From a virus: a DNA stretch of 24,592 nt. Both the position numbers and the translations under genes were made by a program. Shown here in pieces: positions 2,644 through 21,516 of the stretch. The stretch spans positions 1 through 24,592 of IMG/VR virus record IMGVR_UViG_3300021961_000606, one strand, 5' to 3'. The notes below the pieces were generated by a model, which made no database searches, was not told the origin of the DNA, and was given only the letters and a program-made list of their open reading frames with translations. Numbering within the stretch: position 1 is the first letter of the stretch; every line of letters begins with the position of its first letter.

Positions 2644-2958
2644 TTATATATCTTCTTCATTTTGTTTATAACTCCCTCTTGGTCCTCGTTTCTTACGAGA
2701 TGCCTTTCTTTGCATTTCTATCTTTGCTTGTTCAGAAAGTGTATCTTCTAAAAACTTATCAAATGGTCCATTCATTGTATAAATCAAATCATTCAATTCT
2801 TTTATCCATAATTTAAATGTTTCTCTATCCATTTGAGATATTGGTGGATACTTTGATTTTATTTCTTCTTTTAATAACCAATACTGAAGATAGTATTCAT
2901 TTGTTTTTAGTTTCTCAGTATCTTTTGTACCGAGATAGTTTTCAGTTATTTTAGGCAT
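2644..2958 (-). CDS. Hypothetical protein with basic C-terminus
   Basis: This 104-aa soluble protein is predicted to be mostly helical. The N-terminal two thirds are mixed charged helices (LKTNEYYLQYWLLKEEIK; FKLWIKELNDLIY). The end is very basic (RKASRKKRGPRGSYK at about residues 84-98), which could contact nucleic acid. Its ATG overlaps the last 8 bases of the sigma-like gene, indicating coupling. It precedes the 50-aa membrane gene and the small terminase. I do not recognise a family. The position between a sigma-like protein and the terminase suggests a late-gene or packaging accessory role, which is inference only. Confidence 0.7.
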   Translation of the reverse strand: MPKITENYLGTKDTEKLKTNEYYLQYWLLKEEIKSKYPPISQMDRETFKLWIKELNDLIYTMNGPFDKFLEDTLSEQAKIEMQRKASRKKRGPRGSYKQNEEDI

Positions 2959-3520
2959 TGAATGGATTTTTAATCATGTCCTTTAAATGTTCTCTTATCT
3001 TTTTAATACTGATGAATGTTGTACTTTTACTTATACCGATTTTGTTCGCAATCTCTATCATCGTATCATCGTTTCCATAATATAATTCGAATAGTTTTGC
3101 CTTAGGCCACATACGAGTAGTTCCTAATCTTTCTAATTCTTTTTTTACATTATCATACGCTTCCATTATTGCTAAATCTTGTTCTATCGGGTAAACCTCA
3201 TCTTGTAAATCCCAATTTTCTTCTATAAAAGAATCTTGTGAATAACTAATAAGTAATCTTTTTCTTTTGTTTATTTTGTTTATCCACCTCGTTTGTAAGA
3301 AGCGGTAACAATACATAAGATTAAATGAATCGGCGTAATAGATACTTGGATTTCCTTTCTCTAAAAGATAGATGTATAAATCACCTACTAAATCTTCTGC
3401 CTCTTCTCTATTTTTAGTGATGTTTGTAGCCGATTGAAGTAACCATACATAATGTTCTCTTTGTAGAATTTCCATCCTTGATTTTAATTCTTCTAATCTT
3501 TTACGGCTCAAATCTATCAC
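2951..3520 (-). CDS. Sigma-70-like (ECF-type) protein
   Basis: This 189-aa protein has the two-part layout of small sigma factors. The N-terminal half has a region-2-like helix, NREEAEDLVGDLYIYLLEKG, at about residues 37-56, matching the usual pattern of an acidic AEDLVQ-type helix. The second half has a region-4-like helix-turn-helix (LFELYYGNDDTMIEIANKIG, then ISKSTTFISIKKIREHL, about 143-179) in which TMIEIANKIGISKSTT resembles the sigma region 4.2 turn. Such proteins bind core RNA polymerase and direct it to particular promoters. Here it sits just upstream of the packaging genes and could drive late transcription. The alternative is a terminase-linked DNA-binding protein with a sigma-like fold. 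Confidence 0.6.
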   Translation of the reverse strand: MIDLSRKRLEELKSRMEILQREHYVWLLQSATNITKNREEAEDLVGDLYIYLLEKGNPSIYYADSFNLMYCYRFLQTRWINKINKRKRLLISYSQDSFIEENWDLQDEVYPIEQDLAIMEAYDNVKKELERLGTTRMWPKAKLFELYYGNDDTMIEIANKIGISKSTTFISIKKIREHLKDMIKNPFNA

Positions 3521-4094: not shown

Positions 4095-4307
4095 TTAAAA
4101 TAATTTTACTCCTTTACAGTTTCCATCATATCTTGGATTAGTCAAACGATTAAGAATTTCTTTACGTCTACAACACCCACATGATTTAAATCCCAGAATA
4201 CCCACAGCAATGAATGTGGAGATACGATAACCATATCCCAAGGTAATCACATGGATTAATGCCTCTACCCAATCACCAATTTTGATGTGTTCTAAGAATT
4301 TACGCAT
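4095..4307 (-). CDS. Small hydrophobic Cys-rich phage protein
   Basis: The best start is the ATG at 4307-4305, giving 70 aa (MRKFLEHIKIGDWVEAL...). A longer frame from 4379 exists, but it would overlap the HNH gene by 80 bases, whereas the chosen start overlaps its stop by only 8 (ATGCGTAA). A hydrophobic run at about residues 15-43 (ALIHVITLGYGYRISTFIAV) leads into FKSCGCCRRKEILNRL. That short C-G-C/basic/LN signature is familiar to me from small Bacteroidota-phage proteins of unknown function. The pattern suggests membrane association with a Cys-rich end that could bind metal. A lysis or membrane role is possible but unproven. Confidence 0.6.
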   Translation of the reverse strand: MRKFLEHIKIGDWVEALIHVITLGYGYRISTFIAVGILGFKSCGCCRRKEILNRLTNPRYDGNCKGVKLF

Positions 4308-4719
4308 TTTTATTTTGTTTTTGAGTTCTATGGTAGTATCTGATATTTTCTTTTTGTGTAACTTGTCTGAGATTATCAATGTGATTATTTAATTTATTGT
4401 TATCAACATGGTCAACCACAAATCCTTCATATAATGGTTCACCGTATTTGTTGAAGTGTTGATAAACTAATCTATTCAATCTGAGAGATGTTCTATAATT
4501 GTTTTCATTATAGATGTTAGCGTAGTAGTATCTACCTGTGCCGAATGATAATTGTATTTCTCGTAAATCACCTTGGTTAGGTCTATTTCCTCTTCCTAAT
4601 GGTCTTGTGGTTAATACTCTACCGAAATTGGTGATGTAATATTCAGGAAAACCTTTAATAGTTTTCATTTCTTCACCTTGTTGCAATGCCGTGTAAGTTA
4701 CTGGTCCTCTTTTTTTCAT
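4300..4719 (-). CDS. HNH homing endonuclease (NUMOD4 + HNH_3)
   Basis: This 139-aa protein has an N-terminal NUMOD4-like segment (residues about 19-75, with IKGFPEYYITNFGRVLTT) and a C-terminal HNH_3 nuclease core (about 84-125, with VVDHVDNNKLNNHIDNLRQV containing the catalytic-type His104 and Asn pairs). Such free-standing enzymes cut DNA at specific sites and spread themselves into related phages. The leader holds AAAGGAATGAAATT before the ATG, with an AGGA that could act as a weak Shine-Dalgarno, unusual in this window. It also follows an unusual hairpin-rich 168-base gap. It shows no truncation. Confidence 0.85.
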   Translation of the reverse strand: MKKRGPVTYTALQQGEEMKTIKGFPEYYITNFGRVLTTRPLGRGNRPNQGDLREIQLSFGTGRYYYANIYNENNYRTSLRLNRLVYQHFNKYGEPLYEGFVVDHVDNNKLNNHIDNLRQVTQKENIRYYHRTQKQNKNA

Positions 4720-4793: not shown

Positions 4794-4889
4794 AGGGGAA
4801 TCCTTTTTATTCAGTTCATTCCTTCATTGTTTTCCCCTGGTATCTTTATTTTCTCGAAGTGGAAGGTTTTATAATCTTCCACTTTTTTT
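4794..4889 (+). ncRNA. Candidate structured RNA with intrinsic terminator
   Basis: The 168-base gap between the HNH gene and the replication gene holds two hairpins. The first pairs AGGGGAA (4794-4800) with TTCCCCT (4832-4838). The second pairs AAGTGGAAG (4857-4865) with CTTCCACTT (4876-4884) around a 10-base loop. It is followed by a run of seven T on the plus strand, so read in that direction it is a canonical rho-independent terminator. All genes here are on the minus strand, so a plus-strand terminator is unexpected. Either a short plus-strand RNA ends here, or the second hairpin works both ways and ends the replication-gene transcript. I see no convincing promoter. Confidence 0.35.
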
Positions 4890-5463
4890 ATATGTTATCG
4901 AAAACTTTATCAAATTCTTCTTCAGTAGTAATTTTACTATTTTTAAATTTAAAGAAGCTACTATTAGTATTTTTATTATTATTTTCAATTAAAAATTCAT
5001 CACCATTTACTATTTCAGCTTCAACTTCATCTTCATTTCCAGTATGGTTTTCACTAGGTTTACCATAAGGTAAACCATAAGGTAAACCATTAGGTTTTTT
5101 TATGGTTTCATTTAGGTTAGTTTCTGAAGTTAAGGGTTTTGAATCTTTTTTAGGTCTTCCACCATTACTACCATTTTTTCTTCTTGAATCAGTAAAGATT
5201 TTTCTATTTTCAATTTCCATTGCTAATCTATCATTGTAATAGTATCCATCAGCATGAAGTGGAAATCTTTCTAAAATAGTTTCATCTCCTCCAGCAAGTT
5301 GTAAATCATTTTTGGTAAGTTTGTTTTCTTTTTGATGTTGGTAGCAAAGTAGTAGAATATACTTTCCTCTTTGTTCATGTGTCATTGTAAGAGTACCCAC
5401 TATAAAATCTTGTGTGTATAGTAATACAGCTGGGTCTTTACCATTTGTTTTTTTGTTTGCCAT
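4888..5463 (-). CDS. Replication-organiser-like protein (DUF1376/YdaU type)
   Basis: This 191-aa protein has an N-terminal domain (residues about 9-90) resembling the winged-helix DUF1376/YdaU family of phage replication proteins: DPAVLLYTQDFIVGTLTMTHE, then QRGKYILLLCYQHQ. Next come a basic SRRKNGSNGGRPKK stretch (93-106), a low-complexity GLPYGLPYGKP repeat (126-136), and an acidic, Asn-rich C-terminal tail with FDKVFDNI at the very end. Family members are thought to help start phage DNA replication. The DNA for the GLPY repeat forms an inverted/direct repeat cluster, listed separately as a possible origin. The gene may be driven from the 77-base AT-rich gap upstream (TATATTTA at about 5490), but that promoter call is weak. 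Confidence 0.6.
   Translation of the reverse strand: MANKKTNGKDPAVLLYTQDFIVGTLTMTHEQRGKYILLLCYQHQKENKLTKNDLQLAGGDETILERFPLHADGYYYNDRLAMEIENRKIFTDSRRKNGSNGGRPKKDSKPLTSETNLNETIKKPNGLPYGLPYGKPSENHTGNEDEVEAEIVNGDEFLIENNNKNTNSSFFKFKNSKITTEEEFDKVFDNI
5042..5124. repeat. Iteron-like repeat cluster, candidate origin of replication
   Basis: GGTTTACC (5057-5064), GGTAAACC (5069-5076) and GGTAAACC (5081-5088) are separated by identical ATAA spacers. They give an 8-bp perfect inverted repeat plus a 12-bp direct repeat. Degenerate AGGTTT/ATGGTTT copies continue to both sides (5044, 5093, 5103, 5113). The cluster is inside a replication-organiser-like gene, where several phages place their origin. The protein repeat GLPYGLPYG that it encodes looks like a by-product of the DNA pattern. 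Confidence 0.4.
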
Positions 5464-6681: not shown

Positions 6682-6897
6682 TCAAATTTTAAACAATTTT
6701 TCTTGTTGAAGTTGTAAATCGTTTCTTCTTTTAGCCTTTTGTTTTATCAATCTTCGTTTAGTTGTTGGTTTAACATATTCTCTTCTTTCTTTCAACTCCT
6801 CTATGTGGCCAGAAGCTGAAACCTTTTTCTTTAATACTTTTAATGCTTGGTTTATATCACCATTTCTAACTTTTACTGCTACTAATGAAACTCCCAT
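6682..6897 (-). CDS. rpsU: Ribosomal protein bS21 homologue
   Basis: This 71-aa, very basic protein has the same length as E. coli bS21. Its features line up along the whole chain: VAVKVRNGDINQALKVLKKK at residues 6-25 against the VKVRENEPFDVALRRFKR start, a central Gly30, RREYVKPTTKRR at 38-49 against the FYEKPTTERKR core, and a KQKAKRRN tail. bS21 sits on the small subunit near the 3' end of 16S rRNA and affects start-site choice. The ATG shares its A with the TAA of the upstream gene (TAATG), so translation is probably coupled. No Shine-Dalgarno is present. A terminator follows. S21 is known as one of the more frequent ribosomal proteins in phage genomes. Confidence 0.88.
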   Translation of the reverse strand: MGVSLVAVKVRNGDINQALKVLKKKVSASGHIEELKERREYVKPTTKRRLIKQKAKRRNDLQLQQEKLFKI

Positions 6898-10810: not shown

Positions 10811-11503
10811 TTAGTTAGGGAGTAGAGACCAGTAATCCTCTCTAAAGTGTGGATTAAGTTTAATTACACCTGATTCAGTATTAGTTCTATCAGTTATTTC
10901 GTATATTTCTTCATTAGGTTTATCACCCATACCTGATATATGGTACACACCCATCCCCCATCGGTATATCATGGTATATCTACCTAAATCACCAATATGG
11001 ATATCTGCATTATTGTGGAATGTTAACCAATTATCCTCGCCGATAGATTTGTCGATAATCTTACCAACTTTTTTTAGATAGTTCCATTTATAACAATTGC
11101 CATTATTAATACTATCGCCTAATCCTTGGTATTGGTTATGTGAAAAGAAATAATGTTTCTGGTCTCGTAGTATATCTTTGTTTGGATATAGAGTTCTATA
11201 CATCTCATTTATTTCTAATGCATGGGGTGAAAGTAAATCATCATCATCTAATCGGTATATCCAATCATATCTGCACTGAGTAAATCCCCATTCTAATTTT
11301 TTACCTACTGAAGAGAACCTTTCATCAAGGTTTATAATCTTAATATTAGGATGCTCAAACACATATTTTACATCAGGTGAATCATTTATTATCACCATCT
11401 CTGAACTTTCCTTAAATCGTTCGTATTGTAGTAAATACGAGTGTATTGCTTCTTCTAATAACCAACTTCTTTGGTAGGTTAGAGTTAAAATTGAGATTCC
11501 CAT
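10811..11503 (-). CDS. Family-2-like glycosyltransferase
   Basis: This 230-aa protein has a GT-A type N-terminal nucleotide-sugar-binding fold. It starts with ISILTLTYQRSWLLEEAI (3-20), has the acidic IINDS (38-42), and carries the metal-binding motif YRLDDDDLLSPHAL at 83-96. IGEDNWLTF (154-162) could supply the catalytic acidic residue. No membrane segment is present, so it should act in the cytoplasm. It would transfer a sugar from a nucleotide donor to an unknown acceptor. Its start overlaps the upstream glycosyltransferase by 19 bases. It is the last of four such genes in a row, placed between tail-fibre-type genes and the tape measure. Acceptors could be phage tail proteins, phage DNA or host glycans. 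Confidence 0.8.
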   Translation of the reverse strand: MGISILTLTYQRSWLLEEAIHSYLLQYERFKESSEMVIINDSPDVKYVFEHPNIKIINLDERFSSVGKKLEWGFTQCRYDWIYRLDDDDLLSPHALEINEMYRTLYPNKDILRDQKHYFFSHNQYQGLGDSINNGNCYKWNYLKKVGKIIDKSIGEDNWLTFHNNADIHIGDLGRYTMIYRWGMGVYHISGMGDKPNEEIYEITDRTNTESGVIKLNPHFREDYWSLLPN

Positions 11504-12111
11504 AGTTTTATATCTTCTTGTTGTTGGCCAAAAAATTCACCTCTTCGTGTTGTTATAGAGATTTCATCATGCCCTAAATCCATATTTTTTATCATGTATC
11601 CACCTCCTTTTACAAAACGAATAAGGAAATCATCACCACATGCAATCTTTAATCTTTCATCTATCTCTACCCAATTGTCCTTGTGAATGAAGAAAAGGCA
11701 TCCCCATCCCCAAGGTCTCCCCACAATTGGTTCTCTCTCATATTGTAATTCTACATTCTCTCCATAGTAATTACCTGTCCACATTCCGGTCACACCCTCA
11801 TCCATGTGATGTAACATCCAATAGAATATATCAGTATCAAATTCTATATCATCGTTTGATATACATAAGTTTTTGTATTGAGAAGTTCTTACTCCTAAAT
11901 TCCACGCAGGATTTACGAATATATTTTCTTCTTGTGGTAGATATACTAACTTTTTTATAGAATCTAAATAGCTTGGTTTTAAGCTGGTATTATTATCAAT
12001 TAGTATTATCTCACCTACTTCATGGCAATCGTTTAATTTTAGTAGGTTTCTATGGATTCTATCACTATACCACATTGTTGGTATGATTACCGAAAATTTA
12101 CTTCCACTCAT
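11485..12111 (-). CDS. GT-A-type glycosyltransferase
   Basis: This 208-aa protein begins with FSVIIPTMWYSDRIHRNLLK (6-25), followed by EIILIDNN (34-41), FVNPAWNLGV (65-74) and the metal-site motif CISNDDIEFD (83-92). GWGCLFFIHKDNW (135-147) and CGDDFLIRF (158-166) follow in the acceptor-binding half. This order is typical of family-2-like GT-A enzymes. No signal peptide or membrane anchor is visible. It overlaps its upstream neighbour by 14 bases and its downstream neighbour by 19, so the cluster is probably translated in a coupled way. The sugar and acceptor cannot be read from the sequence. Confidence 0.75.
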   Translation of the reverse strand: MSGSKFSVIIPTMWYSDRIHRNLLKLNDCHEVGEIILIDNNTSLKPSYLDSIKKLVYLPQEENIFVNPAWNLGVRTSQYKNLCISNDDIEFDTDIFYWMLHHMDEGVTGMWTGNYYGENVELQYEREPIVGRPWGWGCLFFIHKDNWVEIDERLKIACGDDFLIRFVKGGGYMIKNMDLGHDEISITTRRGEFFGQQQEDIKLWESQF

Positions 12112-13075
12112 TTATCTTTTTCCTTACATCGTTTAACATCCATGTTGAAATAGAATACTCTTTGCTCTCATCAATTTCTTCTATCCATTCACTTTTTTCA
12201 TTTTTGGAATGTAACCACAAGTGTGATACATAGGGGTATTTCTCCATTATCTCTGCATAGAACGATTTTCCTATCTCTTGGGTACATTTGTATTCACCCC
12301 ATTTGAAATCGTTTACTTGCGGTAATTTCATCCATATATCACATAGTTCTCCACCATGATGGCATCTATCCCAAAACGAACTCCAACCAACAAAATCTTC
12401 AAATAGATAAAGTAAGGTCAAACCAAAGTTCCAATCTTCTTTATGTGTTGGCAACCATTTGATACAAGTTTCATTTGTGATTGATTGCCATGAGAAATCA
12501 CCACCTATCCAAACTACTCCTTCGTTTTGTTGGAATTTGGTGTTGTTTAACATATCCCAAATAAAAGGAGATTTAGATTCCCAATTTTGCCAACAATCAT
12601 TTCGTGGGAACATAGGGATTTCATCGTATCCTCTTATCTCTCTTGTAAATCCTGGCACACATCCATCAGGTTCTATCTTATTGTAGAATGAAGTATGTGG
12701 GTCATAACTTCTACAAATTGTATTCTTTGGTGCACGAATAGGGCCAATACATAAATCATCAGTATCAATATAAGTTCCACCAAACTGATATAATAAAATC
12801 AATCTAAATAAATCACTAAAATCTCTTGGGTTTGCTTTTCGGTATTGTTCTATCTTTTCTACTGACATTGGTATTCCTTCAAACCATGTATTATCGAATG
12901 GTAATACTTGTACGCCGAATTTATCATCAAATTGTTCTTGTTTAAGTGAATTTGATACAATAATAATAACATGATTAGGGTTGAATACTCTTGTAGAATA
13001 CACACAATCTTGTAGAATTCTTAATCTATCAGGCCAAATGTGGCCATCCCAATAAAACCAAATTATATTAGACAT
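12098..13075 (-). CDS. GT32-like DXD glycosyltransferase
   Basis: The start is taken as the ATG at 13075-13073, giving 325 aa (MSNIIWFYWDGHIWPDRL...). The longer frame from 13117 would overlap the previous gene by 55 bases, while this start overlaps by 13. The diagnostic block is FSDLFRLILLYQFGGTYIDT followed by DD (86-107). It matches the SDxxRxxxLyxxGGxYxDxD signature of the Gly_transf_sug/GT32 group, with DTD binding the metal and nucleotide sugar. HLWLHSKN near the C-terminus provides a His often seen in this group. Relatives include alpha-mannosyl- and capsule-type transferases. It appears cytoplasmic and is the second gene of the four-gene cluster. Confidence 0.8.
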   Translation of the reverse strand: MSNIIWFYWDGHIWPDRLRILQDCVYSTRVFNPNHVIIIVSNSLKQEQFDDKFGVQVLPFDNTWFEGIPMSVEKIEQYRKANPRDFSDLFRLILLYQFGGTYIDTDDLCIGPIRAPKNTICRSYDPHTSFYNKIEPDGCVPGFTREIRGYDEIPMFPRNDCWQNWESKSPFIWDMLNNTKFQQNEGVVWIGGDFSWQSITNETCIKWLPTHKEDWNFGLTLLYLFEDFVGWSSFWDRCHHGGELCDIWMKLPQVNDFKWGEYKCTQEIGKSFYAEIMEKYPYVSHLWLHSKNEKSEWIEEIDESKEYSISTWMLNDVRKKINEWK

Positions 13076-14037
13076 GATTTCTTTTTTGTTTGTTGTATCC
13101 AAAACCAATAATACCACGATGCAGTATCTTGTTTAGGTTCAGGTGAATCAAATGGTAACTCATTCATGTATTTGGCTTTATAGAATAATCCTGATGTATC
13201 GTTTACTACACCAGCATTATGCATAATATTCATTTTAAAATAATCTTCTTTTGATGATGTTCCCCATGAAAAATCAAAATTTGGATGAGTTATAGTTTTT
13301 TTACCCATTAACCAACCTTTCCAAAGAACTGCCCACATATCTGAACACCATATTTGTATTTCATGATATGGAACTCTTGGTGGTGAATCGGGGGAATGTG
13401 TATGTGCTCTATCTAATGCAATTTTTTCATTATTTAAATCAGTAATTTCTTTAAACATTCTATCTGATTTAATTTCTACCCAATTCCAATAATCATAATC
13501 TAAACCTTTCATAATGTATTGTGCACCGATACAATTTAATTCATTTTCTTTTACCAATTCTTTTGGTATTTCCATGATATCGCACATTGCATCCAATACA
13601 TCTTCACCTTTACTGATAATATAATCATGTCCTATATACCATCTTACATCAGAACCATACCAATTATCATCTTGAACCATTTCAAAAGTAATCCATTCAC
13701 TTGGATTTCTTGTAAAAAGAATATCACAATCATGATAAAAGATTGCATCCTTTACCAAATAGGGGTGTTGTTGGAAATGTTGTTTTAGGATATTAGGACG
13801 AATAGAAGAGATATAATGTTTATTTTCTCTTGTATCATCATAAAAAAAGAATCTTGCTGGATAAGTGTTTGCAAGTTTAATCCAATCTTCAGGAATAACT
13901 CCATTTACTTTCCAACATACAATATCCATATCGTTAGGATTTACTCCCATTGACATGAAGTTATTAATCATTACTTCAACCTGCCATCTATAATAGTTCG
14001 TGGCTGGTTGTGCACAAACATACCTTACTTTTCTCAT
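13063..14037 (-). CDS. Putative glycosyltransferase, HPAT/SGT-like motifs
   Basis: This 324-aa protein starts VRYVCAQPATNYYRWQVEVM. It has an SSIRPNILKQHF block (77-88) followed by AIFYHDCDILFTRNPSEW (98-115), in which DCD is the likely DXD metal site. Later blocks are VRWYIGHDYIISKGEDVL (131-148), HEIQIWCSDMWAVLW (225-239) and HPNFDFSWG (251-259). The order (xWQ..M near the start, xRPxxLxxxx, acidic D-x-D-x-x-F-x-R-P, then an E-x-x-x-x-x-x-M-x-A block) reminds me of plant hydroxyproline O-arabinosyl- and peptidyl-serine galactosyltransferases. That is recall, not a search result. The gene directly follows a tail-fibre-type gene (27 bases) and leads the cluster. Confidence 0.6.
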   Translation of the reverse strand: MRKVRYVCAQPATNYYRWQVEVMINNFMSMGVNPNDMDIVCWKVNGVIPEDWIKLANTYPARFFFYDDTRENKHYISSIRPNILKQHFQQHPYLVKDAIFYHDCDILFTRNPSEWITFEMVQDDNWYGSDVRWYIGHDYIISKGEDVLDAMCDIMEIPKELVKENELNCIGAQYIMKGLDYDYWNWVEIKSDRMFKEITDLNNEKIALDRAHTHSPDSPPRVPYHEIQIWCSDMWAVLWKGWLMGKKTITHPNFDFSWGTSSKEDYFKMNIMHNAGVVNDTSGLFYKAKYMNELPFDSPEPKQDTASWYYWFWIQQTKKKSCLI

Positions 14038-14064: not shown

Positions 14065-14922
14065 TTATAATGGAACACAATTTCCACTAACACAAACTGA
14101 TATATCAATTACAACTCCACTTGAATCAATTTGTGCAACTCTAAATGGACCAGTATCAGTATCAGTAGATACATTTGAGTATGCAACCCATCCTGCAACT
14201 CCACCTTGACCGTAGATTGTATCACCAAGTGTTAAATCAAAGTATCCACCATCAGCGTTAGTTAAAGTTTGGATTAAGTAATTGGTATTACAATAATCTG
14301 AACAAGTTCCTCTAACTGCACCATGAGTATAAATTGTTGAACCGGGTGGGGTAAAATCACAATGTATTGAATCACCACATTCGTATGCTACAGCCGAGTA
14401 AAGAGTTGCATCAGGAGCTGATGGTGAGAATGTATCTGATAAAATTGTTCCACATAATACATCTCCTGCACCTAGCGTACCAACTTGGAATTGTACTACA
14501 TCTCCAACATTAAACTCGTATGTTTGTGCAGTATTATAATAATCAGATGTATTACATTCTTCAATTAAGTAATTATAAACTGCTGCAGTAGTAGTACTTG
14601 TAGTAGGAACTGCTGTGGTTGTACTCGTTGTAGGTGAAACGGTTGTAGTGCTGGTCGTTGTTGGTGAAGCAGTAGTAGTACTTGTTACAGTTGGATTTTC
14701 AACTACCTCATTTGTACAAGAACCTTTTGATATTAATTTAATACATACAGCACTATCATCAACGGTACAATACGCAAATGAACCAACTGAAGGTAAGAAA
14801 ATATTAGTACAATCTGCAGATTGTGTATATGTGTTACAATCAGCAGAATATTGCACAGAGAAGTTAGGTCCAGCATTTGAACCTAATTGTGTTAATGTTA
14901 TTTTTCTTACTTCGTTTGCCAT
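14065..14922 (-). CDS. Tail-fibre-type protein with mucin-like linker
   Basis: This 285-aa protein has at least four parts. Residues 1-75 form a Cys-rich domain (SADCNTYTQSADCTN, LPSVGSFAYCTV, ISKGSCTN). Residues 77-114 are a Pro/Thr/Ser linker of PTTSTTT-type repeats. Two related beta modules follow at about 116-165 (YLIEECNTSDYY, FNVGDVVQF, DVLCGT) and 213-255 (YLIQTLTNADGG, LTLGDTIYG). The ending is Cys-containing (CVSGNC). No catalytic motif is visible. The layout fits an exposed virion adhesin or decoration protein at the end of the tail module. It is followed by the glycosyltransferase cluster. A purely structural role is equally possible; the receptor is unknown. Confidence 0.6.
   Translation of the reverse strand: MANEVRKITLTQLGSNAGPNFSVQYSADCNTYTQSADCTNIFLPSVGSFAYCTVDDSAVCIKLISKGSCTNEVVENPTVTSTTTASPTTTSTTTVSPTTSTTTAVPTTSTTTAAVYNYLIEECNTSDYYNTAQTYEFNVGDVVQFQVGTLGAGDVLCGTILSDTFSPSAPDATLYSAVAYECGDSIHCDFTPPGSTIYTHGAVRGTCSDYCNTNYLIQTLTNADGGYFDLTLGDTIYGQGGVAGWVAYSNVSTDTDTGPFRVAQIDSSGVVIDISVCVSGNCVPL
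14581..14694 (-). repeat. Mucin-like Pro/Thr/Ser repeat linker (285-aa protein)
   Basis: This array encodes residues 77-114 in repeats of STTTxxPTTS type (variants ASP, VSP, AVP). About four degenerate units of 24-27 bases are present. Related units occur at 15307-15582 and 20644-20772 in two other genes. Thr and Ser make up most of the residues and no charged residue is present, as expected for a flexible or O-glycosylated stalk. Confidence 0.85.
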
Positions 14923-14934
14923 GTTTTATTGATA

Positions 14935-16146
14935 TTATATCTCAGTTATAGTAACACTTCTTGTAAAATCTGTCCAACCAGTTGATGAATTATCTTTCAT
15001 AACATTATTCAAATTAACAAAATTTGTCTGATTAAGATAAGATGCAGTTTCATATAACACACCATCATAATAATCTTCAAATAATATATTAATAGGTCCT
15101 GGTATATAAGCATCAGTAGATGATGTAAATAACTGATTCCATTGGGTTTGATTACTATCTATAAATTCAGCATCGGTAACTATTGTTGTACCATTAGTAA
15201 TGGTAGTATTAATAAAATATGTAAATGGATTAGTAGAATAACGATAACCAAGTTCCGTCCAATAACTACCAGTTCCACTTAAATTTACTTCTAATCTAAT
15301 ATTTTTATTTGGAGAAGCGGTGGTTGTGCTGGTTGTTGGAGCAACAGTTGTTGTAGTAGGCGAAAGCGTTGTAGTAGGAACTGCAGTTGTTGTGCTGGTT
15401 GTTGGAACTACAGTTGTTGTGCTCGTAGTAGGCGAAACCGTTGTAGTAGGAACTAAAGTAGTTGTGCTAGTAGTAGGTGAAACAGTAGTTGTGGGAACTA
15501 AAGTAGTTGTACTCGTAGTTGGAACTGCAGTTGTTGTACTGGTTGTTGGTGAAACTGTTGTAGTACTTGTGGTTGTAGGAACAAGACCTTCAATTGATGA
15601 ACTGAAATAGAATGAACAATCAAGTTCATTTACTGTTGCTGCATCTGAAATGATTGGACCTAATAATTGTATCTTACAAGTTCCATTCTTTAAGTTATAA
15701 TCATTTATTGCTCGTAAATGGTAATAATTTCCTCTCCATTGAACGATATCATTCAACTCCATCTCGAAGTAATCCGCAAGTGGAATAATTGCACTAGCGT
15801 TGATTAAACGAGTTCTTGGGTTATATAAAAGGGAAACATATTTATCCCAATATTGTGTATATAAAGAGCCAGTAGGTGTAACTCCATAAGGTGGAGTTTC
15901 ATTATAGAATAAAAGTGAATTAGAGCCAGTACTTGGTTCTAACCCATCATAATAATCAAAATAAGGGAATTGTTCTCTTTCTGAAACTTCTACATTTGTT
16001 GAAGAACCATTTTGATAATGCTGTATATAATATGGTTCACAATCCTTTAATCCATTATAAAAATAAATGTGCGGGAGTGTTCTAACCGGTTGATAATTTA
16101 CCGATGAAATAAAGGTTGGAATATATATTTTATTTTTTACAGCCAT
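14935..16146 (-). CDS. Tail protein: baseplate-type domain plus linker and C-terminal domain
   Basis: This is a 403-aa protein. The N-terminal part (1-185) includes IYIPTFISSVNYQPVRTLPH, YWDKYVSLLYNPRTRLINAS and FEMELNDIVQWRGNYYHLRA, then CKIQLLGPI. The tail of the pattern (YNPRxRxxxA...DIVxxxGxYYxLxxIxDYN...KxQLL) resembles the C-terminal part of tail/baseplate hub-like proteins of Bacteroidota phages. Residues 189-280 are the longest mucin-like linker in the window. Residues 281-403 form a beta-type domain (LEVNLSGTGSYWTELGYRYS; INTTITNGTTIVTDAEF) that may bind a receptor. The gene follows the 703-aa tail gene after 9 bases, and the two together may be one split ancestral protein. Confidence 0.65.
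   Translation of the reverse strand: MAVKNKIYIPTFISSVNYQPVRTLPHIYFYNGLKDCEPYYIQHYQNGSSTNVEVSEREQFPYFDYYDGLEPSTGSNSLLFYNETPPYGVTPTGSLYTQYWDKYVSLLYNPRTRLINASAIIPLADYFEMELNDIVQWRGNYYHLRAINDYNLKNGTCKIQLLGPIISDAATVNELDCSFYFSSSIEGLVPTTTSTTTVSPTTSTTTAVPTTSTTTLVPTTTVSPTTSTTTLVPTTTVSPTTSTTTVVPTTSTTTAVPTTTLSPTTTTVAPTTSTTTASPNKNIRLEVNLSGTGSYWTELGYRYSTNPFTYFINTTITNGTTIVTDAEFIDSNQTQWNQLFTSSTDAYIPGPINILFEDYYDGVLYETASYLNQTNFVNLNNVMKDNSSTGWTDFTRSVTITEI
15307..15582 (-). repeat. Mucin-like Pro/Thr/Ser repeat linker (403-aa protein)
   Basis: This array encodes residues 189-280, about 92 residues made nearly only of Thr, Ser, Pro and Val/Ala/Leu. The units alternate between PTTSTTT and PTTTVSP types, so the repeat has a mixed period of about 24-45 bases. 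It is the longest of three such arrays. Its reverse strand produces an artificial Val-rich frame that is not a gene. Confidence 0.88.
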
Positions 16147-16155
16147 AATCTAATT

Positions 16156-18267
16156 TTATTCGCCAGAGAATCCTATTGCCTTAAAGTAACAAGTTGTTGC
16201 TGCAATATCTGCTGCCTCTACTATATATGTATAAGTTGAACTTGAACTTGAACCTAAATCCAAATCAGTTTCAACACCATCTAAATCTCTAACAAATCTC
16301 CAATCATTTGTAATACCACCACCGGTGAAAGTAAATGTAATACTTGTTCCTTCTGCTACAGTTCTTCCAGTATATCCACTATCAGGGTCATTATCAAATC
16401 CACTTGCCATTGGTGAGTAAACCGATGTGAATGCATTTACAATAAATTCAGTTCCAATTTGAATAGAACATTCGGCTGATGCAAATGAAGTAAATTCAGT
16501 TGTAACTGATGCTTGTGCTAAGAATCCAACTGCTCCTTGTGTTGCAGAACCTGATGTTCCAGTATTTGTTAAATAAACTAAAGGAGTAGATGCAAATTTA
16601 GTTTCTACTTTAAACTCACCTTGTGAGAAGAAGTTTTCAGTATCTATATAATATGTTTTACCATATTCTCTATTCTCTGCTTTAGAGAATTGCTGAGATA
16701 CATAATCACCATCCAATTTATCACCGAATTGTAATTGATTAACAGCAAGGTTGTTTGCTGGTATTACTTCTATTTTATCGTTAAGATTTATATATTTGTT
16801 AAAATCTTTTGTTGCACCTTTATTGTACCAATTGTTAAATGTTTCTACAATAAACTCTCTTGGTTTTGTTTTATTTGGGTAAATAACTAAATTATATTTC
16901 TTTTGTACCGAAGTTATAAAATCAATCAACTTAATACCACTTGTACCATAAGGCATATTCTGGCCTATGTTCATAACTAATCCATCTCCACCTTGGTTTA
17001 CTTTTGTTACTTGTAAGTAACCTTTTGTAGAATTATCAGGATTAAGTGTTACTTTAAAATTACTACCACCTTGATTTTCATATCTTAAATAAAATTCATA
17101 ACTATCTACATCTAAAGTATCCGAATTCCATTCAGTTAATAATTCAAACTTTTCAGTTTTTGTTTGTGGAGAATTATAAATTTGAATATCAGTTAAATAA
17201 TTGTTTATATTTGTAAGTTCAATAGTAGAATCTATATTATTTAATGAATCTTTTATTTCTAAATAAAATTGTGGGATTCCATTGCCAGTTGCTGATGAAC
17301 TTACTTCAAAATTTAAATTTAATAATCCTCTTAATCTTGATGCAATTCCTAATGAATATTCTAAATTAGAATTAATTGAATCAGCCGGATTTTCTTGTAT
17401 GTTAAACCATTCTAACTTAACTGCAGAACCTGCATTCATTACTAAATCAGTTCCACTTCCACTTACTGGTGCAATCTTAAATAAACCGTATGTTTCTAAA
17501 TCATAATTTGTAAACACTGGATAACGAAGATTATTATTACAAATCATGTACACATTATCCAAAAATGGTTCATCCCAAAATGAAGATGAGTATGTATAAC
17601 CAAATTGTTGGAATATAGCATCCCATACTTTCTTTATACGAATTGCAGGTTTAAAATCTTGTACACATAATGAACCCGATGGTGAATCTATACCAGTTAA
17701 GTTTTCTTCGGGTGTATATTGTATTTTTTGCCCATACTCAGCAAGAGGATAAACAATATCTCCATCAAACAAATCTCCATTCCAAGATGCAGATATATTT
17801 TCGTAAGATGCTGTATGATTGAATTGTGCTAAAGAAGAAGTTAAATCAGTTAGATAATATCGGTTGATATCTCTACCAAAAGAACTCAATCCTCCGTATA
17901 TAGAAATCTCGTAGGATTCAACGAATTTGTTTGCATATACATTTACTTGGTTTAATTGTAAATAACCCTGAGAAATGTATATACCATCGAAATCGAAGTA
18001 TGCAGGAACTTTAACATTGGTTCTAAACAAGTATGGATTCTCTACTGCAATGTCATAAACATGCTGAAAGAATGCATCATTAGTTTTAGTGCCAGGAATA
18101 GTAATTTGACGAGTAAAATCAGAAGGTAGAACACCTAAATCAAATAAACCCGTAACATTATCTGATACGAGTATTTGTTCATCAGAGAAAGTATCGAGTT
18201 CTTCATACCCATTACTTCCTGATGCCATTAACCTGAAATTAAATCCTTTACTACTATTAACTCCCAT
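16156..18267 (-). CDS. Large tail/baseplate protein (hub-like)
   Basis: This is a 703-aa protein. Its N-terminal region includes FDLGVLPSDFTRQITIPGTK (42-61), then FFQHVYDIAVENPYLFRTNV and a YFDFDGIYISQGYLQL stretch. This IxIPGTKxNxxFFxHxYDI pattern is, from memory, a hallmark of a large tail protein in Bacteroidota phages. The middle is beta-rich with many aromatic residues. The last 110-120 residues (from about 585) look like an added Ig-like module: TEFTSFASAECSIQIG, GTSITFTFTGGGITNDWRFV and a final CYFKAIGFSGE. It shares one base (TAATG) with the stop of the 387-aa gene. A tail-tip, Dit/Tal-like role is likely from position, without catalytic residues to prove it. Confidence 0.65.
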   Translation of the reverse strand: MGVNSSKGFNFRLMASGSNGYEELDTFSDEQILVSDNVTGLFDLGVLPSDFTRQITIPGTKTNDAFFQHVYDIAVENPYLFRTNVKVPAYFDFDGIYISQGYLQLNQVNVYANKFVESYEISIYGGLSSFGRDINRYYLTDLTSSLAQFNHTASYENISASWNGDLFDGDIVYPLAEYGQKIQYTPEENLTGIDSPSGSLCVQDFKPAIRIKKVWDAIFQQFGYTYSSSFWDEPFLDNVYMICNNNLRYPVFTNYDLETYGLFKIAPVSGSGTDLVMNAGSAVKLEWFNIQENPADSINSNLEYSLGIASRLRGLLNLNFEVSSSATGNGIPQFYLEIKDSLNNIDSTIELTNINNYLTDIQIYNSPQTKTEKFELLTEWNSDTLDVDSYEFYLRYENQGGSNFKVTLNPDNSTKGYLQVTKVNQGGDGLVMNIGQNMPYGTSGIKLIDFITSVQKKYNLVIYPNKTKPREFIVETFNNWYNKGATKDFNKYINLNDKIEVIPANNLAVNQLQFGDKLDGDYVSQQFSKAENREYGKTYYIDTENFFSQGEFKVETKFASTPLVYLTNTGTSGSATQGAVGFLAQASVTTEFTSFASAECSIQIGTEFIVNAFTSVYSPMASGFDNDPDSGYTGRTVAEGTSITFTFTGGGITNDWRFVRDLDGVETDLDLGSSSSSTYTYIVEAADIAATTCYFKAIGFSGE

Positions 18268-19902: not shown

Positions 19903-21516
19903 TTAAGGAATAGTTGTAGTTGTTGTAGTTGGTGGTGGACAACTCCATGTAATATTTTGAAAATCAGTTAAAGTTTCAGATAAAGTATCTTCTATTTGAC
20001 CATTCCATGCATTTACACCAATAATACTTCCTGAAAAATAAGGTATAGTTCCTAATGTTGAATTACCAAATTTGCCAAACCAATTTTTAGCACTCATAGT
20101 AGCTACACTTGTACTTGCATATGCAGAACCGGTAACACTACCACTACCTATTAAATTTAAATCCTCATATAATTTAATAGAATTATTTCCACCATCAAAT
20201 AATAAACTGTACATATGCGGATTATTATCCAATGTAATTGAACCTGAAGTATATCGAGGGTAACCAGGATTTGTTTGAGAAGCCAATCTAGCATAATACA
20301 TCATAGAATTAGATGTATCTATCCACCAAAAATCAGAGTTTTCTGGTGTTGTTGGTATTGCCCAAACTGCCATATTACCACCGGTATTATTTATACTTCC
20401 ATAAAATTGTAATGAAAAATTATTACTAATTGGTATTCTTCTACTATCGGGAGTAACTACTGAACCTGTTACTTCTAATCCATTTATTGTACAATTTAAT
20501 GGCCAATAAGGATATGTTGTCCAGTTACCCATAAAATTAATACCACCATAAGTTAAATCATCATACCAAAACTTATTTAATGAAGAACTCTCAATATATC
20601 CTTCGATAGTTGGACCATATATTTGTGTTAATAATGTAGCTTGAGTAGTTGTGCTAGTAGTTGGAACTAATGTAGTAGTGCTAGTAGTTGGAACTAATGT
20701 AGTAGTGCTAGTAGTTGGAACTAATGTAGTTGTGCTTGTAGTTGGCGATATAGTTGTAGTACTTGTTGTAGGTAAAATGCCAGTTTGGCATTCTATACAA
20801 CTTCCATAAAAATCTAATGGTTTAAGATTTACATAATCCCAACTATTAAAATTAGTTACTTCTGAATCAACATAAAAACAATTTGTAGTTGTTCCAATTT
20901 GTGATGAAAAATAATCCCCAACATTTACACTACCACTAATTACAGCATATTTGTATTCAGATGTTAAACAATCTTGTATCTTATATCCATTACCATCAGG
21001 CGATATCAAAAAAAAACTAAAACGATTTCTATCATTGTGAACCGTAAGTGTGAATGTACACACCCACCCTGCCAGGCCATTATTAAACCTATCTTCAAAT
21101 GGTTCACATAATATATCTGAAATTATTTCAAATCCATCTACACCATTCGCAGTATATGATGTTAAATCGTTTATAATTGCAAGTGTGTTTGCGTGTATAT
21201 CAACTGTATCATCTACTCCATAGAATGGAATAGTTTGAGTGTTGAATGCTCCACCACTTTCGTTATTTCTATTTTTGATTTTATCTGCAAGTATAAGTTG
21301 TATTTCCCATTGAGTAGTAGTACCAACAAAGTTAGATGACAAAATAGATACATTACCCACTGGGTATTGTGGGAATTCTCTTGTATCAAAATCTTGAATC
21401 AATCCTTGTGTAACTACTTCAATTGAAGGATGATTATTCATAATTGTTTTGAAATAATTCAAAACATTATAATATAATGTATAGTTTACACCTGAATTAT
21501 GAACTATTGCTGCCAT
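19903..21516 (-). CDS. Tail-terminator-like protein with fused domains and linker
   Basis: This 537-aa protein appears to be a fusion. Residues 1-170 (IEVVTQGLIQDFDTREFPQY; QWEIQLILADKI; ILCEPFEDRFNNGLAGWVCT) match, from memory, a conserved tail-terminator/completion-type protein of Bacteroidota phages that normally ends here. Residues 177-220 are a Cys/NVGD beta module (YKIQDCLTSEY, SVNVGDYF, NCFYVDS). Residues 249-291 are a PTTSTTT linker. Residues 295-525 look like a LamG/ConA-type beta-sandwich (FSLQFYGSINNTG, MYSLLFDGGNNSIKLYEDLN, FSGSIIGVNAWNGQ). The last residues, CPPPTTTTTTIP, are a linker with nothing after it. A normally small joint protein thus carries a probable carbohydrate-binding extension. 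Confidence 0.6.
   Translation of the reverse strand: MAAIVHNSGVNYTLYYNVLNYFKTIMNNHPSIEVVTQGLIQDFDTREFPQYPVGNVSILSSNFVGTTTQWEIQLILADKIKNRNNESGGAFNTQTIPFYGVDDTVDIHANTLAIINDLTSYTANGVDGFEIISDILCEPFEDRFNNGLAGWVCTFTLTVHNDRNRFSFFLISPDGNGYKIQDCLTSEYKYAVISGSVNVGDYFSSQIGTTTNCFYVDSEVTNFNSWDYVNLKPLDFYGSCIECQTGILPTTSTTTISPTTSTTTLVPTTSTTTLVPTTSTTTLVPTTSTTTQATLLTQIYGPTIEGYIESSSLNKFWYDDLTYGGINFMGNWTTYPYWPLNCTINGLEVTGSVVTPDSRRIPISNNFSLQFYGSINNTGGNMAVWAIPTTPENSDFWWIDTSNSMMYYARLASQTNPGYPRYTSGSITLDNNPHMYSLLFDGGNNSIKLYEDLNLIGSGSVTGSAYASTSVATMSAKNWFGKFGNSTLGTIPYFSGSIIGVNAWNGQIEDTLSETLTDFQNITWSCPPPTTTTTTIP
20644..20772 (-). repeat. Tandem 27-bp mucin-like repeat (537-aa protein)
   Basis: This array encodes residues 249-291, in LVPTTSTTT units. 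Two successive 27-base units (20657-20683 and 20684-20710) are identical and a third (20711-20737) differs at two bases, which indicates very recent duplication. The other two arrays in the window are more diverged, so this one was probably expanded last. Confidence 0.9.

Follow-up and report, generated by a model that had tools for sequence, protein, structure and literature searches.

A predicted iteron-type replication origin inside the DUF1376-type initiator gene of a phage

Replication origins that lie inside the gene of the initiator protein have been described for several phages. The iterons of λ gene O are about 18–20 bp long, longer than those of the locus reported here. As described in an account of λ and Stx phages (PMC7466680), the iterons lie in the middle of gene O beside an A+T-rich tract, and their number varies, which alters the length of the protein. 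An account of Bacillus phage SPP1 places the direct repeats and the A+T-rich unwinding element of oriL inside gene 38, which encodes the origin-binding protein (PMC6316719). In lactococcal phages, TP901-1 ORF13 and Tuc2009 Rep2009 are described as binding direct-repeat regions within their own genes, which serve as origin (PMC8965321).

The stretch of DNA analysed here (the window) is a virus record of 24,592 bases, classed as linear. It carries, inside a gene of the DUF1376 type, an array of short repeats that a preliminary description had put forward as a candidate iteron-type origin within an initiator gene. Support for this proposal comes from the recurrence of the array across initiator families and reading frames and from a homologue in Tuc2009. 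As in ori-λ, the iterons occupy a central part of the initiator gene and adjoin an A+T-rich tract, and as in SPP1 oriL, repeats and A+T-rich element lie inside the gene of the putative origin-binding protein. However, both λ and SPP1 rely on initiators of other families, and SPP1 has its own loader and helicase (gp39/gp40), none of which was seen among the window proteins scanned. As in the window, the repeats of ori2009, the origin of Lactococcus phage Tuc2009, are located within the gene for the initiator, contain AACC half-sites 11 bp apart and are followed by short repeats, in this case of the GGATAG type. This origin differs by its DnaD-like initiator, kin of that of locus L026 and not a DUF1376 protein, and by its direct AACCA units in place of GGTWWACC palindromes. 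The window protein shares its domain family with the DUF1376/YdaU primosomal proteins of prophages; a literature search of partial coverage found no description of an origin inside DUF1376/YdaU genes.

We estimate at about 0.83 the probability that the array is the replication origin of the phage, located inside its own initiator gene in the style of λ O, SPP1 38 and Tuc2009. This predicted intragenic iteron origin combines repeats in helical phase within an initiator gene, an adjoining A+T-rich tract, and DNA conserved beyond the protein. It would be an origin of a known kind; what appears to be new, on sequence comparison, is DUF1376 as an origin-carrying initiator family and a common two-part layout. 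The features of the locus are as follows.

4888–5463, minus strand: DUF1376-type replication initiator gene, 191 aa (Pfam DUF1376, PHROG primosomal protein, iterated profile, AlphaFold model)
5046–5117, minus strand: chain of seven ACC half-sites in 11–12 bp phase, degenerate flanking copies included
5057–5064, 5069–5076 and 5081–5088, no strand assigned: three core iterons, GGTTTACC, GGTAAACC and GGTAAACC, at 12-bp spacing with spacers ATAA/ATAA
5014–5038, minus strand: 6-bp tandem repeat GAAGAT/GAAGTT/GAAGCT (coding strand), located 3′ of the iterons and proposed to open the strands
4891–5013, no strand assigned: A+T-rich stretch, 20–24% GC, extending between the short repeat and the end of the gene; putative unwinding region

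An inverted repeat plus a direct repeat with degenerate copies on both sides had been reported at 5042–5124. The sequence GGTTTACC-ATAA-GGTAAACC-ATAA-GGTAAACC is indeed present at 5057–5088 as an exact match, and TRF delimits a 12-bp array at 5062–5095. Within the window there is a single instance of the three-copy pattern, and 0/100 dinucleotide shuffles contain it. On the minus (coding) strand, ACC half-sites start at 5117, 5106, 5095, 5083, 5071, 5059 and 5048, that is at successive spacings of 11, 11, 12, 12, 12 and 11 bp, with the core repeat in the middle of the chain. The reported interval is about right for these iterons but leaves the 6-bp repeat element (about 5014–5038) just outside. 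A chain of at least seven ACC half-sites at 11/12 bp was obtained in 1/1000 synonymous-codon shuffles of the window gene. Three GGTNNACC sites arose in 76/200 synonymous shuffles preserving GLPYGLPYGKP; the palindrome count in the window alone is therefore no evidence beyond the encoded protein and was dropped as a stand-alone argument. The window by itself cannot settle DNA against protein conservation, which comparison settles better. Judged by the comparisons below, the conserved unit is the ACC/GGTWWACC half-site in one-helical-turn phase, rather than the exact inverted-plus-direct arrangement of the preliminary description. GC skew, a check suggested there, was uninformative: it is negative on both sides of the array with no switch, and the main genes of the window all lie on one strand.

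The window protein matches Pfam DUF1376 (PF07120) with 24 bits and E=5e-5, below the curated cut-off of 30.1, and a PHROG 'primosomal protein' with E=6e-6; with a family profile iterated from its relatives it scores 79 bits. These Pfam and PHROG matches are weak but consistent, and by profile comparison the protein is placed in the DUF1376 domain family. No O-like PHROG match was obtained for it at E up to 0.1, and one DUF1376 protein of a named phage carries the annotation DNA replication protein O. In the AlphaFold model, blocks of residues 11–90 have mean pLDDT values of 81–93 and residues 111–181 fall below 50, which indicates a confident N-terminal domain (about residues 11–100) and a disordered linker (111–181). 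According to this model, it is the disordered linker that the iterons encode. Matches in the viral structure library BFVD were DUF1376, Lin1244/Lin1753-like and replication proteins. A PDB structure search with the N-terminal domain gave weak winged-helix-like matches to IclR, ORC2 and MarR (best Z 4.5, below any safe threshold), and the best Foldseek E against PDB was 0.6, with no clear fold match.

Among 2.9 million viral contigs, a scan for GGTWWACC in three copies spaced 12 bp apart yielded 24 stretches: 17 in initiator-type genes, four in genes without assigned family, and three in unrelated repeat proteins that match the pattern (L009, L021 and L027). The initiator-type genes comprise five of DUF1376 (among them L018, the near-identical twin of the window), eight DnaD-like (phrog_5708), two of phrog_186 and two replisome organizers of phrog_13246, as assigned by profile scans of representatives (ten proteins in each of two scans) and for the remainder by shared N-termini. 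The four genes without assigned family (L005, L008, L020 and L016) have the layout seen in the initiators; L005 and L020 were profile-scanned without trusted match, and L016 is truncated before its N-terminus. In bacterial genomes, initiators accounted for 3/20 of the pattern stretches. The reading frame of the array differs between genes. Over 20 of them (17 viral and three genome loci, with the near-duplicates L008, L010, L015 and L022 left out), the core encodes GxP (phase 0) in 12 and VN or VY (phase 2) in seven, and it occurs in both phases in one (L017). The DNA core is thus kept while peptide and frame change. The loss of the DNA repeat in relatives that retain the protein, which had been proposed as a refuting outcome, is the opposite of what the comparison showed: the DNA core persists in relatives as well as in unrelated initiators, and other DUF1376 genes have differently worded 11- or 12-bp iterons.

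The four-base spacers are identical in 4/20 array genes versus 12/13 other pattern loci, in a comparison that left out L027 and the genome stretches L028, L033, L035, L038, L040 and L047; with these six genome stretches added, the other loci have identical spacers in 13/19 cases (versus 4/20, Fisher p=0.004). Initiators therefore hold the core and let the spacers drift, whereas at the non-initiator loci the whole unit is mostly a simple tandem repeat. The same triple at 11-bp spacing gave 0 viral matches. At 15-bp spacing there were 13 stretches, about three of them initiator-like by reading (L226, L056 and L126) and the remainder in repeat proteins, in other genes or with no ORF printed. The reversed motif CCAWWTGG gave five stretches, two of which are DUF1376 genes with CCATATGG arrays (L049 and L050), so that it is not a clean negative control. 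A variable-gap scan returned at least 119 stretches, which were left out of the counts. An extra GGTTAACC lies near gene position 209 in L004 and L032, far upstream of the main array and within an AACCA-rich stretch (seen in L168). In the Gallionella genomes L039, L043 and L045 there is a short tandem repeat of the CTAGGTTTACCC type, which no initiator-like ORF spans.

DUF1376 genes were also gathered regardless of repeats, from PF07120 searches of 398 Pseudomonadota-side genomes (28 with a match) and of 395 genomes of Bacteroidota, the phylum of Aquimarina (three with a match), together with named phages and viral relatives. The periodicity of the DNA exceeded that of synonymous shuffles in 14/47 DUF1376 genes versus 5/107 control ORFs (Fisher p=4e-5). 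This set results from the removal of 5/52 profile matches (near-duplicates or masked bases) and includes the window gene, which misses the cut-off (3/200 shuffles). Chains of 4-mers at 11/12 bp were significant in 9/46 DUF1376 genes, the window's own gene being left out, versus 1/107 control ORFs (p=9e-5), and other chain spacings in 0–2 of the 46; about 80% of the tested genes have no significant 11/12-bp chain by this statistic. The wording of the iterons varies by member, with AACGNNCGT-type units at 11 bp in L176, GTTNNAAC at 11/22 bp in L177 and GCGNNCGC at 11 bp in L174. A period of 11 bp cannot be an in-frame protein repeat. In Rac YdaU, two sites only were found and no clear array was readable.

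The nearest relative of the window gene is L003, whose protein is 66% identical. Its ACC half-sites are at gene positions 346, 357, 368, 380 and 391, compared with 346, 357, 368, 380, 392, 404 and 415 in the window, which thus has two units more, a difference that shows up in the protein alignment as a gap of 8 residues. A copy of GGTTAACC read in the VN frame is also present in L003. The link to an experimentally known origin is provided by the DnaD-like family bearing GGTATACC arrays, which has 42.9% identity over 64% of the query with Tuc2009 Rep. The annotation of the Tuc2009 gene reads 'Rep; contains origin of replication', and the gene contains four AACCA units spaced 11 bp apart, then GGATAGG-type short repeats.

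Short repeats also follow the iterons in the window. TRF finds a period of 6 at 5014–5036, with 15/18 matches at lag 6, a value reached in 0.2% of control windows. The GC content is 0.20 at 4891–4960 and 0.24 at 4960–5056, and 1000-base windows across the record have 26–36% GC. With the score threshold set at the 99th percentile of control windows, a tandem repeat of 5–7 bp is present within 100 bases 3′ of the arrays at 24/30 loci and on the 5′ side at 0/29 (p=3e-11; the 5′ flank of L016 was left unscored, hence n=29), the loci having been picked for carrying arrays and including kin (nine DnaD-like with Tuc2009), so that they are not independent. This two-part layout is common to the loci while the 3′ repeats themselves vary: GAAGNT in the window, ACTGGA in L003, TCACCA in L016 and L017, AAACA in L006, AGGATAG in L026 and Tuc2009, and ACACCAG in L174. 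Repeats with a period of 5 or 7 do not preserve the reading frame. An account of Bacillus subtilis assigns the recruitment of DnaD to a single-strand motif opposite the DnaA-trios (PMC10201434); we use this element as a model for the 3′ short repeat, not as a test of it.

We propose that the N-terminal DUF1376 domain (residues about 10–100) binds GGTWWACC/ACC iterons, one per helical turn, and that this phased binding would line up the bound protein along one side of the helix as a nucleoprotein array. Strand opening would follow in the adjacent short tandem repeat and A+T-rich tract on the 3′ side, and the initiator would recruit the host helicase and replisome, directly or via a host loader, to give an active origin. 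The gene may tolerate the iterons because the part of the protein that they encode is the disordered linker after the DNA-binding domain. A wider proposal, to which we give even odds, is that at least four initiator families (DUF1376, DnaD-like, HTH/DnaB_2-type and phrog_13246) share one hidden origin design, with one-turn AACC/GGTWWACC iterons in the linker and a 3′ strand-asymmetric repeat of 5–7 bp acting like a DnaA-trio/DnaD element. DUF1376 would then be a large unrecognised class of origin-binding initiators, with the iteron sequence switching between members. Such a role would give DUF1376, a phage and prophage domain of unknown function in Pfam, a testable job. If this is true, origins of uncultured phages could be read from sequence alone, the GKPxGKP, VNHxVNH and HMDNHMDN linkers of phage replication proteins would be the coding shadow of iterons, and the 3′ short repeat might be a phage counterpart of the single-strand elements of bacterial origins.

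The array might instead have no DNA function and be a repeat at the coding level only, produced when replication slippage expanded a low-complexity linker (GLPYGLPYGKP). The spacers in the window are identical and a recent tandem duplication could explain the 12-bp copies taken alone; moreover, three palindromes often survive synonymous shuffling (the 76/200 above), and unrelated proteins with GKPxGKPx repeats match the pattern too (L009, L021, L029, L031 and L037). However, one DNA core is found in two frames and in several peptides with drifting spacers, members of the DUF1376 family have out-of-frame 11-bp iterons, and the half-site register is the same in the 66% identical L003, which makes slippage unlikely as the sole explanation. 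Plasmid iterons also serve autoregulation, and a regulatory operator or the site of another protein (initiator autoregulation, partition or packaging) would suit a locus with a sigma-like gene (2951–3520) and terminase genes nearby. Yet the array lies mid-gene in the linker in every family and not at a promoter, its carriers are initiator families and not repressors or terminases, and the corresponding site in the homologous Tuc2009 gene is, as described for that phage, the origin. We therefore consider it very unlikely that the site is an operator instead of an origin.

Regulation at the RNA level, through an mRNA hairpin, was considered as well. The window RNA folds better than 200/200 shuffles (z -3.45), as do L019, L176 and L049, and L006 has a z of -2.86. 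This stability is not kept in L003 (z -0.86), Tuc2009 (z -0.02), L177 (z -0.61) or L026 (z -1.11), and looks like a by-product of the palindromes; the hairpin was rejected as scarcely credible.

Named phages have, immediately downstream of the DUF1376 gene, a gene for a DnaC-like/helicase loader, replication protein P, DnaB or a primase/helicase; in Rac-SA53 it is ydaV, a putative replication protein gene. Apart from HNH endonucleases, no loader, helicase, primase or other replication-type gene was recognised among the proteins scanned (two sets of ten window proteins and a third of six window and four L018 proteins), which do not cover window ORFs 14065–18267 and 19903–21516 and small ORFs. 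Beyond the terminase, the L018 contig contains a capsid-type gene, followed by the gene that stands at the right end of the window. This continuity makes it probable that the complete genome measures about 30 kb and is circularly permuted. In that case, DUF1376 is the sole replication-initiation gene found among the proteins scanned, and helicase function would have to come from the host.

Several other genes of the window, all on the minus strand, were noted. Directly downstream of the initiator gene, 4300–4719 encodes an HNH endonuclease with a weak NUMOD4 match. Between the initiator and terminase genes, 2951–3520 encodes a sigma-factor-like protein (phrog_1740, UPF0122), a possible phage late regulator. 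A small ORF at 6682–6897 matches a phage-encoded ribosomal protein S21 (phrog_21469, E=5e-8). In the tail region, four consecutive glycosyltransferase-like ORFs occupy 10811–14037, one with a weak galactosyl transferase match, and the genes at 14065–16146 and 19903–21516 contain long SPTTSTTT/VPTTSTTT repeats with TRF periods of 27, 45, 54 and 72.
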